A stretch of DNA of 54,567 nucleotides from Gammaproteobacteria bacterium HGW-Gammaproteobacteria-3 (GTDB lineage Bacteria > Pseudomonadota > Gammaproteobacteria > Methylococcales > Methylomonadaceae): contig PGZD01000009.1 in NCBI GenBank assembly GCA_002843155.1, forward strand, positions 1 through 54,567. The letters run 5' to 3'. A program made the position numbers and the translations under genes. The notes beneath the pieces are model-generated. The model was not told the origin of the DNA and searched no databases. It saw nothing but the letters and a program-made list of their open reading frames with translations. This document shows, piece by piece, positions 18,981 to 22,902 of this stretch (position 1 is the first letter of the stretch; each line of letters begins with the position of its first letter).

Positions 18981-19520
18981 ATGACCGATGATGAACTCAA
19001 AGCCTTGGTTGCCAGCCTGTCTGTTGCCCAAAAAGCCACTGATGAACAAATACGGCGCAATGATAAAAAGCTGACCGAAAAGCTGGAGCGGATGGGCATT
19101 ACTTTAGGCAATATAGCCAACAATCAGGGTGATGTAGCCGAAGAATTTTTCTTCACCAATTTAGCTAATGATACGCATTTTAGGCATATCCGTTTTGACG
19201 ACATTGAAAAAAGCAGTCACAAACGACGCGGAAAAACCGAAGAGGAATATGACATCATTATGACCAACGGTGACGCCATCGGCATTGTCGAAGTCAAATA
19301 CAAAGCCCATACCAACGATTTGGACAAGCTGGATCGTAAAATGCGCAATTTCAAAGTTTTGTTTCCGGTTTACCGGAATTACAAACAATACGGTGCCATT
19401 GCCTCCTTCCATATCAATGACGAGGCCAAAAAAGAAGCCTGGAAACGCGGCTATTTTGTTCTGCAACGCAGCGGTGATTTGGTGCATACCGAAAGCGGCA
19501 AGCATTTGACGGTGTTGTAG
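18981..19520 (+). CDS. PD-(D/E)XK nuclease-like protein
   Basis: 179 aa. The first 45 residues are a helical coiled coil (LSVAQKATDEQIRRNDKKLTEKLE, split). A core then shows Glu in GDVAEEFF (54/55), Asp91 in YDIIM and the dyad IVEVKYK (Glu104, Lys106), the arrangement of PD-(D/E)XK nucleases with hallmark D...ExK. Similar proteins are often annotated DUF3782 or restriction-fold hypotheticals. It has a GGAGT site 5 bases before the ATG. It is convergent with the HerA-type ATPase gene 66 bases away, but not co-transcribed with it. Confidence 0.75.
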   Translation: MTDDELKALVASLSVAQKATDEQIRRNDKKLTEKLERMGITLGNIANNQGDVAEEFFFTNLANDTHFRHIRFDDIEKSSHKRRGKTEEEYDIIMTNGDAIGIVEVKYKAHTNDLDKLDRKMRNFKVLFPVYRNYKQYGAIASFHINDEAKKEAWKRGYFVLQRSGDLVHTESGKHLTVL

Positions 19521-19586: not shown

Positions 19587-21245
19587 TTATTTACGGGTCT
19601 GTGTGCGCCAGAGCTGTACAATCTGCTCAACATCGATATCGTCCGGGCCTTCGCGCCAACCGTCAAAATAATCGACATCATTACTTTTAGGTTCGGGATC
19701 AGGCCGGTAAATCTGTACCCGTGTCGGCAAAGGCGCCGCTTCGCCCAGAACCAGCGCTTCGCCTCGGCCCAGCGAAGTCAGTATATCGGTCAGATCGCCT
19801 TCGGCTTCCGGCACCAGGCCTTTGATATAAGCCTGATCGTCAGGGTTGGTGGTGCGCAGGCAGATAAACGAGCTGCATTGGGACAGCATGGTTTCGGACA
19901 ATTCAGTGGGCCTTTGGCTGACGACGCCGATAGAAACACCGTATTTACGGCCTTCCTTGGCAATTCGCTCCATCATTTTTTTGGTGCCTTCAAAGGGCCC
20001 GCCTTTTTCCCTGGGAATATAGGCGTGGGCTTCTTCGCAAATCAGCGTGATCGGAAACTCCCGGCGCTTGGGGTTCCAGTAATTGAATTCATAGGCCAGG
20101 CGGCCGACCTGGGCGGAGACGGCGGGCCTGACATCGGTCGGCACGGAGCTCAAATCCACTACCGTGATATTGGCTTTATTGTCGCCCAGGCCGATAAATT
20201 GCCGCAGCAAATCCGCCATCCCGGCCGAATTATTGCGTTTTTTGGGTTTGAGCAAAAAATCATAACGGACATCGTTAAAACGGCTTTGCATCCTGATCAG
20301 AAAGTCATCGAACTGCCCGAACAAGGCGCCTTTGGTTTTGCCGAAGTCTTTACGCTCTTCATTGGCGTTTTTGAACTGCATGTACATTTCGGCCAGGGAA
20401 AAATATATCGGTGTATCGATGGACACGACGCCAAGACCTATGGCTTTGGCTTCCTTACGTTTAAGCTGCTGCAATATTTCGCGCATGAACGCCATCTGCA
20501 TCGAAGCGCCCTTGTCGTCACGGTCGATGAACAAATCCACCAGCTCGGCATACGTCATCATCCAGTAAGGCATTTCCATTTCCATGGCATCGACATAATT
20601 CACCCGTTCACAAGGAAATGCAGAATGAATTTCGCCGCCATCGCCTTTCCAGCAATATTCGCCATGCAGATCGAGCATGATCAAATGAGCTTTGGGCATC
20701 GCTTTAAGGGTGTGCTGGATCAGACTGGTGACGGCCCATGATTTTCCTGAACCGGATTGTCCCAGGATGGCGAAGTGACGGCCGAACAAGGCGCGCGGAT
20801 CGAGGCTCAGGTGATAATCTTTGTGCGTCGATAGTTGGCCGATAAAAAATTCATAATCCCTGAACTTGGAAAAAATGGCGTTGATCTCATTCAGACCCAC
20901 GGCATAAACGTTGGCGCCGGGCGTTGGATAATGTCTGACGCCCCGGATAAAGGTACCATCCTCTTGAATTTCACCCACCGGAATCAGGGAAATGTAGCGA
21001 TCCGTCCGGCGCTCGTCGGCGCCGTCAAAACGGTCTTTTTGCCACATCTTGAACACCAGCGCCAAAACACCGATTTCGGCCTGCCGGATAATGACATAAG
21101 AACCAATGTGCCCCGCCAGCAATTCCTGATCATCTATCTTGATGAGCGGCAAATCGCCCGCGTGTTGTTCCGTTATTCTGGCATCCATGCCGTCGCCTCT
21201 TACTTCGGATAAATAGCCGATGAGAATGCTGTTTGTTTGTTGCAT
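19587..21245 (-). CDS. HerA-family DNA-translocating ATPase
   Basis: 552 aa. The N-terminal beta-barrel (HAS-like) region precedes a RecA-type core with Walker A GQSGSGKSW (162-170), Walker B LICEEAHAYIP (about 405-415), and an RPTELSETMLSQC sensor/arginine region, all characteristic of HerA/FtsK-superfamily hexameric translocases. Archaeal HerA works with the nuclease NurA in end resection; bacterial HerA proteins also pair with Sir2, DUF4297 or other effectors in phage defence. No NurA or Sir2 gene adjoins it. The nearest nuclease-like gene is convergent (18981-19520). Role here is open. Confidence 0.9.
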   Translation of the reverse strand: MQQTNSILIGYLSEVRGDGMDARITEQHAGDLPLIKIDDQELLAGHIGSYVIIRQAEIGVLALVFKMWQKDRFDGADERRTDRYISLIPVGEIQEDGTFIRGVRHYPTPGANVYAVGLNEINAIFSKFRDYEFFIGQLSTHKDYHLSLDPRALFGRHFAILGQSGSGKSWAVTSLIQHTLKAMPKAHLIMLDLHGEYCWKGDGGEIHSAFPCERVNYVDAMEMEMPYWMMTYAELVDLFIDRDDKGASMQMAFMREILQQLKRKEAKAIGLGVVSIDTPIYFSLAEMYMQFKNANEERKDFGKTKGALFGQFDDFLIRMQSRFNDVRYDFLLKPKKRNNSAGMADLLRQFIGLGDNKANITVVDLSSVPTDVRPAVSAQVGRLAYEFNYWNPKRREFPITLICEEAHAYIPREKGGPFEGTKKMMERIAKEGRKYGVSIGVVSQRPTELSETMLSQCSSFICLRTTNPDDQAYIKGLVPEAEGDLTDILTSLGRGEALVLGEAAPLPTRVQIYRPDPEPKSNDVDYFDGWREGPDDIDVEQIVQLWRTQTRK

Positions 21246-21360: not shown

Positions 21361-21888
21361 TCATTTTTCCACTTCGTCGTTCCAGATAGGATTGTCACGA
21401 TCTTCAGGCGTCAATTTGACGGCATCTTCAGGATAGATATGCCAGAATGATTTATCGATGGCGCCTTCCCGATAATCTTCCTTGTTGGCGTGGGTAAACG
21501 GGCACCACCAGTTCTCGACAATTTTAACCATGTAGGCATGCCATTCGAACAAGGCGACACTGACCGGACAGTACCAGGTGCAGTTTAAAATCCAGAACAG
21601 CCTGGACTGCGCGAGGCTGGCTTTGAAAGAGCCTTCCATGGTGATTTGGCTTTTCAGATCATAACGATGGCTGCTGCGATTGGGAATAAAATCGCCCAGA
21701 GTTTTAATATTCCTGGCTCCCATCATGCGCAAGTGAAAGTAGGTCAGATAGGCGCTGATAATGACAAAAGGAAAAGTCAACAGCGGCAAATAAATCAGAA
21801 CCAGGCCCACGGCTCTTTGCAAAACGGGGGTTTGTCTATGGTTTTTGCCGATTTCGACGCGGGTGGCACAGGTTTCACAAGCCTTCAT
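21361..21888 (-). CDS. Cys-rich membrane protein of unknown function
   Basis: 175 aa from the ATG at 21888, which has AGAGGT 9 bases upstream; a longer in-frame form from 21945 would overlap the preceding gene. It opens MKACETCATRVEIGK with a CxxC, has one long hydrophobic stretch (VGLVLIYLPLLTFPFVIISAYLTYFHL), then a soluble part with NCTWYCPVSVALFEW and ENWWCPFTHANK. Several Cys and aromatic residues could bind a metal or form disulfides. It lies 7 bases after the small CxxC gene at 21896, with which it forms a unit. I do not recognise the family. Confidence 0.75.
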   Translation of the reverse strand: MKACETCATRVEIGKNHRQTPVLQRAVGLVLIYLPLLTFPFVIISAYLTYFHLRMMGARNIKTLGDFIPNRSSHRYDLKSQITMEGSFKASLAQSRLFWILNCTWYCPVSVALFEWHAYMVKIVENWWCPFTHANKEDYREGAIDKSFWHIYPEDAVKLTPEDRDNPIWNDEVEK

Positions 21889-21895
21889 TATAGTA

Positions 21896-22081
21896 TTACC
21901 TCTTTTTTTTAGTTTGAATGGAATCGGTAAGCGTTTTATTGTCATTGAGCAATGGATAAATACTCAGGCAGCCCGCACAGCAAAAAGACAGCTTGCCTGT
22001 TTCGGTTTTCAGGTCAAAACCTTTAATTTCGACGGCTTGGCCGCATAATGCACAAACCGGTTTTTTCTTTTCAACTGCCAT
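21896..22081 (-). CDS. Small metal-binding-like protein (CxxC, FCCxGC)
   Basis: 61 aa from the ATG at 22081; a TTG eight codons earlier gives an implausible extension. CALCG and FCCAGC form a four-to-five-Cys site. The FCCxGC pattern also occurs at the N-terminus of FixI/CcoI-type copper P-type ATPases, hinting at copper or zinc binding, but no ATPase is present. Tail is Lys/Arg-rich. Co-transcribed with the Cys-rich membrane protein that follows. It starts just after the rlmI remnant, so its own promoter may lie in or before that remnant. Confidence 0.65.
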   Translation of the reverse strand: MAVEKKKPVCALCGQAVEIKGFDLKTETGKLSFCCAGCLSIYPLLNDNKTLTDSIQTKKKR

Positions 22082-22154
22082 AGGGAACCGTTGGGTTGCA
22101 AACAACGCAATTCAACCTGCACCTGGATGCAGAGCGCACATAGACCAGGCCTCC

Positions 22155-22253
22155 AGGACTGAACGCGTCGATTTCATGACTGAAAATCCACTGATGACCT
22201 TGACGCAAACGCTTGTTTTCATTTTTTCGTAAATAAAGCTCAGGATGAGTCAT
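22155..22253 (-). pseudogene. rlmI: Truncated rlmI (5' end only)
   Basis: From an ATG at 22253, HPELYLRKNENKRLRQGHQW and then IFSHEIDAF match the PUA-domain start of the 23S rRNA m5C methyltransferase RlmI (YccW), normally near 396 aa. About 32 codons are preserved. After FSPG the frame runs into unrelated sequence (VYVRSASRCRLNCVVCNP) and stops at 22071. The methyltransferase domain is absent, so this is a deletion relic or an insertion junction. The start is 2 bases from the stop of the DUF3426 gene, as in a once co-transcribed pair. Confidence 0.7.
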
Positions 22254-22254
22254 A

Positions 22255-22902
22255 TCAAATCAGTTCAAAAATATAGCCGCCCAAGATTATATCGGGCGCG
22301 ATAATATCGAGTGCAATGGTCAAGGATTGGTCGCTTTCAATAACGGCGTCCGGAGCCTCCCGGTAATCGTCGGGTCGAAAAATTCTGGCGGCAAACGGCT
22401 CGCCGCCTAACCTGATAAAAGTGAGATCGAGGTTGGGCGGACGCTGCGGGAATGCGGCCTGATTATGAATAACCGCCTGAAAACTATAATAGCCACCCTC
22501 AGCCACGGTTAATGAGCTTTCAATGACTGCAAAATAGGCAGGATTACGGTACTCCGGCAAGCTACAGCCAAGGCTCCTGCAAGCCTTGTCCAGCCAAGGC
22601 CGCAGTGTTTCATTCTGAAGGGCGGCGGAACTTTCGAAATAAATCAGTTGCCCGATCAAAACGAAAAAGCCCAACAGTACAGCCAATCCCCAATAGGCAC
22701 TCGATGCAGACGCAGACTCCGCTGCCCAAGGCTGGCCAACCGTTTCCTCAGGCGGTATCTTACCGGGTGTGGATTCGCTCAATCGCTGCAAGGCGTCAAA
22801 TAAAGCTGAACAGTTCGGGCAGCGGATTATGCCCCGACTTTCCCGAAGCTGCTCAACGCCCAGTGTCTGAGTCCTGTTACAGTGCGGGCATTGGGTGTAC
22901 AT
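22255..22902 (-). CDS. Zinc-ribbon / DUF3426 membrane protein
   Basis: 215 aa from the ATG at 22902 (MYTQCPHCNRTQ), which lies 2 bases after the prmA stop; this is the family's usual beginning. An N-terminal zinc ribbon has CPHC and CPNC with the RCPNCSALFDAL signature of MJ0042-type fingers. A single transmembrane helix follows near residues 70-92 (YWGLAVLLGFFVLIGQLIYF), then a periplasmic DUF3426 beta-rich domain with CRSLGCSLPEYRNPA. This prmA-DUF3426 order is common in Gammaproteobacteria. Function unknown. Confidence 0.88.
   Translation of the reverse strand: MYTQCPHCNRTQTLGVEQLRESRGIIRCPNCSALFDALQRLSESTPGKIPPEETVGQPWAAESASASSAYWGLAVLLGFFVLIGQLIYFESSAALQNETLRPWLDKACRSLGCSLPEYRNPAYFAVIESSLTVAEGGYYSFQAVIHNQAAFPQRPPNLDLTFIRLGGEPFAARIFRPDDYREAPDAVIESDQSLTIALDIIAPDIILGGYIFELI

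Follow-up and report, generated by a model that had tools for sequence, protein, structure and literature searches.

The window, by which we mean the whole analyzed stretch of 54,567 nucleotides, contains two adjacent cysteine-rich genes on the minus strand (Table 1). The first encodes a 61-aa protein, here called P2, with the motifs CALC and FCCAGC. It is followed, after a gap of seven bases (21889-21895), by a gene for a 175-aa protein, P1, with the motifs CETC, NCTWYCP, and WWCP. A previous sequence-only reading of this DNA described both proteins, their cysteine motifs, and the distance between them, and all of these are present. The genome (3.1 Mb in 135 contigs) carries one copy of P1. 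Only the first part of the rlmI-like gene lies ahead of P2, and its product in relatives has 398 aa. None of dusB, fis, purH, and purD, and no copper P1B-ATPase, is encoded within the window.

Table 1. Features of the P2-P1 locus; residues are numbered in the window proteins.
Feature	Position	Strand	Remark
P1, predicted cysteine-rich membrane protein, 175 aa, without known family	21361..21888	-	
P2, putative stand-alone PF12156/TRASH metal-binding protein, 61 aa	21896..22081	-	
P1 N-terminal CxxC (Cys4, Cys7)	21868..21879	-	not invariant
P1 first transmembrane segment (predicted), about residues 26-50, invariant Pro35 and Pro40	21739..21813	-	
P1 predicted second long helix, residues 96-128, marginal hydropathy	21505..21603	-	
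P1 motif NCxxYCP, Asn102-Pro108, invariant Cys103 and Cys107	21565..21585	-	122/122 copies
P1 motif (W/F)WCPFxH, residues 127-133, invariant Cys129 and His133	21490..21510	-	122/122 copies
P1 motif SxWH, residues 147-150, invariant Ser147, Trp149, and His150	21439..21450	-	122/122 copies
P2 first cysteine pair, Cys10 and Cys13	22043..22054	-	invariant, 41/41
P2 FCCAGC, residues 33-38; Cys34, Cys35, and Cys38 invariant	21968..21985	-	41/41
GAGG 5' of the P1 start, beside the P2 stop codon; possible ribosome-binding site	~21899-21902	-	read from sequence
rlmI-like remnant (name by eye), context, not part of the pair	22092..22280	-	

Judged by its sequence, P2 is a recognizable stand-alone PF12156/TRASH domain that probably binds metal. 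All 41 aligned P2 proteins match PF12156 (ATPase-cat_bd, a putative metal-binding domain of cation transport ATPases) at E ≤ 0.01, the best at 1.1e-7, and 32 of them also match PF24273 (HVO_1752 TRASH); both families share the CxxC and FCCxGC core of P2. The window copy matches both, PF12156 with E 2e-4 and 22.3 bits, below the curated cut-off of 27, and, in contrast to the ATPase domain described by this family, P2 stands alone. The five cysteines are invariant throughout the alignment, and the window protein has Pro at the position of the nearly invariant Gln43. A structural model of P2 (pLDDT 74) yielded weak treble-clef/TRASH matches, among them L24e (4v9f_U, TM 0.51), 2das, and the TRASH domain of ZMYM5, all at E > 0.3. 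P2 is the only PF12156-like stretch in its genome at E ≤ 1. The accessible part of PMC12617631 contains nothing on a domain of the P2 type.

P1, in turn, appears to represent a family without a description in the literature or the family libraries that were searched. Searches of Pfam, NCBIfam, and the PDB sequences yielded no significant match to it, nor did PADLOC for the window copy, and no relative is found among the IMG/VR viral contigs or PLSDB plasmids. The best weak Pfam match, DUF3007, was obtained for four of 19 members (best E 0.007) and discounted as a match of the hydrophobic segment. Neither protein is named in the titles or abstract starts covered by the literature search, which is weak evidence, as hypothetical proteins are rarely named. 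Thus, the earlier view that both proteins are unrecognized holds for P1 and should be given up for P2.

The hydropathy profile of P1 contains one clear segment (residues 19-51), in agreement with the single helix proposed previously, together with a marginal segment at residues 97-115 (mean KD 1.03). The AlphaFold2 model built from 63 sequences differs from that proposal: it has one long helix at residues 22-55, another at 96-128, and no strand (mean pLDDT 65, pTM 0.58, with residues 129-150 under 50). No PDB fold matched the model in Foldseek and VIA-align comparisons, and, given this and the moderate confidence of the model, we derived no site geometry. Both the N-terminal part and the loop 52-96 carry a positive mean net charge (+3.1 and +4.4, respectively), and therefore the topology was left unassigned.

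A pattern scan of one genome per species (84,980 species) revealed 169 stretches encoding P1 relatives, and hence the observation of the P1-P2 pair is not due to chance. The best 80 of the 169 are 69-79% identical to P1 over nearly the full length. They come from Methylobacter, Methylomicrobium, Methylicorpusculum, Crenothrix, the methane-oxidizing symbiont of Gigantopelta, and bacteria labeled as Methylococcaceae or Methylococcales; one of the 80 (L105) is labeled simply as a proteobacterium. Strong purifying selection acts on P1: dN/dS is about 0.1, with values of 0.07-0.12 against four relatives (at dS > 1.2) and 0.03-0.12 for five other pairs. In 51 loci that retain all neighbors, the mean pairwise identity of P1 (0.81) is close to that of PrmA (0.82), RlmI (0.85), DusB (0.78), Fis (0.77), and PurH (0.85). 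P2 varies more, with a mean of 0.56 in 34 loci.

We aligned 122 copies of P1, some of them near-identical, as two collections were used, some about 50% identical, and one from outside the order. In this alignment 38 positions are invariant, including C103, C107, C129, H133, H150, W99, W128, and W149, as well as P35, P40, N102, E125, N126, D145, and S147. The core of P1, as it reads from these sequences, is C-x3-C-P, W-C-P-F-x-H, and S-x-W-H. Other Cys and His residues vary: Cys7 is replaced by Ser or Thr in five of the 122 copies, all from genus g20, His117 is replaced in five copies, and the protein from outside the order, as read, begins downstream of the N-terminal CxxC motif. By the predicted helix limits, C103/C107 and C129 are near opposite ends of a single helix, which argues against a single site per chain.

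P1 is almost confined to Methylococcales, as far as sampled. Of 61 relatives, 39 carry it, and so do 177 of the 251 genomes sampled from the order. Within family f1, which contains Methylobacter and by inference corresponds to Methylomonadaceae, 165 of 177 genomes carry it (counted by hand). Of the matches in the order, that in G044 covers 38 residues and contains two stop codons, and the scores mark a few more as incomplete. Four of 274 genomes in a sample of the class match P1, three being carriers inside the order; without these three known carriers, P1 is present in one of 271 genomes. In the sample of the phylum, only the window's own genome matches among 398, the other 397 being without P1. 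This restriction was observed within the order, class, and phylum samples, in which the alphaproteobacterial and verrucomicrobial methanotrophs were not singled out. The spread to non-methanotrophs by which the sequence-only reading would have been refuted was looked for in these samples and not found, and the restriction of P1 to an order of methanotrophs is supported within them.

The single carrier outside the order, the gammaproteobacterial genome G285, contains a divergent P1 (48% identical; L122, 1901-2455), which adjoins a DUF302-like gene (named by eye). Because this genome has a completeness of 86% and a contamination of 6%, the P1 may have been misbinned. Four P1 matches each were observed in G097 and G178, and two each in G102, G230, and G244, against one in each of the other listed carriers; split genes may account for the higher numbers in these five genomes.

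The sequence-only reading also named co-occurrence with particulate methane monooxygenase (pMMO) as support for a copper role, and a tie of P1 to pMMO was not supported. The pmoA family (PF02461) has a match in 207 of the 251 genomes of the order. By a count made by hand, 160 genomes have both P1 and PF02461 (G044 among them), 47 have PF02461 only, 17 have P1 only, and 27 have neither. All 17 genomes with P1 only are drafts of 20 or more contigs. The 47 genomes with PF02461 only include 12 from family f7 and two from f8, whose matches are weaker (E 1e-85 to 1e-111) and may represent other hydrocarbon monooxygenases; 33 genomes remain without these two families. In nearly closed genomes such as G046, G055, and G057 (one to three contigs each) pmoA is present and P1 is absent. 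In the incomplete genome G285, a search that covered pmoB yielded no match; two P1 carriers inside the order (G003 and G148) also lack a pmoB match, so the absence in drafts means little. Finally, where P1 and pmoA are on one contig, the nearest distance is 0.38 Mb (G023), followed by 0.72 (G054), 0.73 (G039), 0.77 (G027), and 1.09 Mb (G186), and in the window's genome the two genes are on different contigs.

In relatives, the usual gene order is prmA-(DUF3426)-rlmI-P2-P1-dusB-fis-purH-purD; the neighbors were named by eye, and PrmA alone was checked by Pfam. Among 78 evaluable loci (L088 and L074, with contigs ending inside P1 or the P2 position, were left out), a P2-like ORF is located 5' of P1 in 55, at most 50 bases away or overlapping it by four. 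The four-base overlap occurs in 12 of these 55 loci and suggests translational coupling of P2 and P1. The other 23 of the 78 loci lack P2 next to P1 or have it in decayed form; remnants can be recognized in L044, L049, and L085. A search of 39 chosen genomes revealed a P2-like protein in 25. Twelve f1 genomes lack P1; eight of them have a P2-like protein, and four, from genus g21, have none. Five g20 genomes (L215-L219) carry P1 after zwf-pgl (names by eye), with no P2 in the fetched stretches and with gnd also present near P1 in L215, L217, and L218. Thus, P1 and P2 are loosely linked: P2 is optional, and P1 can relocate. Mostly housekeeping-like genes surround P1 and no neighbor is common to all its placements; we therefore inferred no function from the neighborhood.

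Some of the relocated copies have further neighbors. Farther on in L215-L219 there is a gene for an unrecognized MSNCC protein, about 105 aa long except in L218, where it is shorter, and a gene resembling that of asparaginase, and in L215 a transposase-like gene lies in between. In the Gigantopelta symbiont and a relative (L017, L104, and L106), P1 follows cobalamin-like genes resembling cobS and bluB (named by eye) and not rlmI.

A second setting is observed for paralogs of P2, denoted P2'. We considered 20 places with P2-like genes (L165-L184), and at 15 of them a copper-type ATPase is part of an operon. The order in this operon is an 83-aa membrane protein, P2', a protein of about 110 aa, an HMA2-like protein of about 200 aa, and the ATPase; in eight of the 20 places a DsbD_2-like protein on the same strand extends it. 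L182 has the smaller operon genes without the ATPase, and L173, L175, L183, and L184 have no operon. An example is provided by L172, where the ATPase contains HMA and HMA_2 domains, reads CPCALGLA, and passes the TIGR01511 model of copper-translocating ATPases (595 vs. 397 bits), P2' passes the PF12156 cut-off (35.3 vs. 27 bits), and the DsbD_2 protein is present.

The same operon can occupy the chromosomal slot of the pair. In four g20 genomes without P1 (G019, G094, G119, and G171) it is located directly 3' of rlmI; dusB lies on its far side in G094 and G119 and is unseen in the stretches fetched from G019 and G171. In G232 the operon is located ahead of dusB, and no rlmI was seen up to the contig end. 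These loci (L174, L177, L224, and L225 after rlmI, L176 before dusB) are all from genus g20; an EcsC-family-like protein was seen in some of these operons.

Slot and operon proteins separate in a tree of the 38-residue core, with the reservation that the alignment is short: the 40 slot P2 all cluster together (support 0.76) with a single intruder among them, and the 18 P2' all cluster likewise (support 0.79) with two. The HMA2-like operon protein is present in 28 of 61 relatives. Counted by hand, 20 of the 61 genomes have both it and P1, 19 have P1 only, eight have the operon protein only, and 14 have neither; hence there is no strong link between P1 and the copper operon. The window's own genome contains no HMA2-like operon protein, and the operon was judged to be missing there.

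The closest described counterpart of P2 is provided by the archaeal copTMA system. According to the accessible part of PMC3595675, CopM1 (71 aa) and CopM2 (56 aa) of Sulfolobus metallicus are TRASH proteins co-transcribed with CopA, an ATPase with the CPCALGLA motif. CopM is, like P2, a small stand-alone TRASH-type protein, and its position beside CopA resembles that of P2' beside the CPC-motif copper ATPase. The likeness is one of description, and there are differences: a TRASH protein adjacent to a copper P1B ATPase is observed for P2', whereas the window P2 adjoins P1, and no CopT-type regulator was seen. The available text of PMC5829832 mentions a CopA whose N-terminus carries a TRASH domain, and that of PMC8475189 mentions two N-terminal metal sites of Rhodobacter CcoI.

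For P1, comparable proteins are more distant. PmoD/AmoD of methane and ammonia oxidizers are, like P1, small cysteine-containing membrane proteins of copper-dependent oxidizers. The part of PMC6189053 consulted describes for PmoD a signal peptide, a periplasmic domain whose fold resembles the CuA domain, and a single helix at the C-terminus. Judged by its sequence and model, P1 shows none of these three features: it starts with MKACxxC, its clear helix is close to the N-terminus, and the model is helical, and we rejected the PmoD/AmoD-type architecture.

Cx3C-type copper motifs, which the C-x3-C-P of P1 loosely resembles, are also found in Sco-type copper chaperones. The likeness to CuA sites is equally loose and consists of this motif and of His117, which follows Cys107 at a distance of ten residues and is kept in 117 of the 122 copies. 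Unlike CuA sites, the Cx3C of P1 would lie in a predicted helix, with no strand predicted. The canonical CuA motif Hx34Cx3Cx3Hx2M (quoted in the accessible part of PMC6189053) is absent from P1, where the His comes ten residues on and Met120 is variable; accordingly, a CuA protein was rejected as a candidate.

Tentatively, and with somewhat less than an even chance for the reading as a whole, we propose that P1 is a membrane metalloprotein of Methylococcales, most likely a Cu(I) one, and P2 its optional CopM-like accessory. P1 would be anchored in the membrane through two helices, the first certain and the second probable, and would bind a transition metal, most likely Cu(I), via C103-x3-C107-P, WC129-P-F-x-H133, and SxW-H150, holding or passing it at the membrane. 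P2 may be a small cytosolic TRASH/PF12156 protein of the CopM type that probably buffers the metal or delivers it, perhaps to P1, being helpful and not needed. Three Cys and two His invariant in 122 sequences, with neighboring Trp/Tyr residues, are consistent with such a site. Copper is the likeliest metal because a sister protein of P2 is encoded in a copper pump operon, as CopM is in Sulfolobus; handling of metal by the pair is thus suggested by association. The earlier proposal that the cysteine pattern points to copper or zinc is supported as to a metal, by the PF12156 matches of all aligned P2 and by P2' in the copper ATPase operon, whereas the two metals are indistinguishable from sequence. 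The occurrence of P2-like proteins in genomes without P1 speaks against the proposed partnership.

In another scenario, compatible with the other readings, P2 and P1 have unrelated jobs and share the slot after rlmI, P2 being a relic of the kind of copper-ATPase operon present in this slot elsewhere. We consider it plausible, if not quite probable. The place after rlmI is filled by either P2-P1 or the operon, P2 is absent or decayed in a part of the loci, and P1 has no P2 nearby in the five relocated copies of g20; on the other hand, a relic is hard to reconcile with the separation of slot P2 from P2' in the tree, the four-base overlaps, and the retention of all five cysteines.

A structural zinc site is less likely. 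P1 would then be a subunit or scaffold of a membrane complex or of intracytoplasmic membranes and would have no part in metal traffic. The invariant Cys3His2 set with aromatic residues and the lack of a transporter-like architecture agree with this role, as do the near-universal presence of P1 in f1, usually in one copy, conservation similar to that of housekeeping neighbors, and the dispensability of P2. However, relatives with the pmoA family, which would be expected to share the membrane systems, often lack P1, and by the helix limits of the model the ligand pairs would be far apart.

Binding of heme or a thiol-redox activity via YCP, WCP, and the His residues is improbable. A Cys-Pro dipeptide can serve as a heme regulatory motif, and P1 contains two invariant ones along with invariant His133 and His150; yet it matches no heme-protein family, and the TRASH protein that is probably its partner suggests metal instead of heme. 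Least probable is a PmoD-like supply of copper by P1 specifically to pMMO: the 160 of 177 P1 genomes with a pmoA-family match and the restriction to the methanotroph order are in its favor, but it is opposed by the 47 of 207 PF02461 genomes without P1 (33 without f7 and f8), including the nearly closed ones, by the carrier outside the order with no pmoB match, and by the distance between P1 and pmoA.

Returning to P1 as a membrane metalloprotein, P2 is a known kind of protein, and the novelty lies in P1. The conservation of P1, its lack of a known family, its near-restriction to one order, and its probably metal-binding neighbor P2 point to a probable metal-handling step that is still undescribed. 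A bolder version, which we regard as rather unlikely, makes P1 the first member of a new membrane metalloprotein family whose CxxxCP/WCPFxH/SxWH site is novel; as an old component, nearly fixed in f1 and kept by some relatives, it would serve in metal or electron handling at the membranes of these bacteria, outside any described system. The gammaproteobacterial methanotrophs matter as a biological sink of methane, and their growth depends on metals. Strongly conserved, usually single-copy, kept by nearly all sampled members of f1, and invariant in its Cys/His core, P1 is well suited as a candidate for an undescribed step in the metal economy of these bacteria. Its role is testable in genetically tractable methanotroph strains; a genome-wide CRISPRi library is available for Methylococcus capsulatus, as stated in the accessible part of PMC13108547.

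On the other side of P1, the window differs from its relatives. The place held there by dusB-fis-purHD is occupied by a gene for a HerA-type ATPase (19587-21245, minus strand), convergent with a gene for a 179-aa protein (18981-19520, plus strand). The ATPase matches PADLOC HerA models with up to 449 bits and the NCBIfam anti-phage HerA model with 361 bits, below the cut-off of 850, and the 179-aa protein has weak PD-(D/E)XK-like matches. The two genes possibly form a defense pair.
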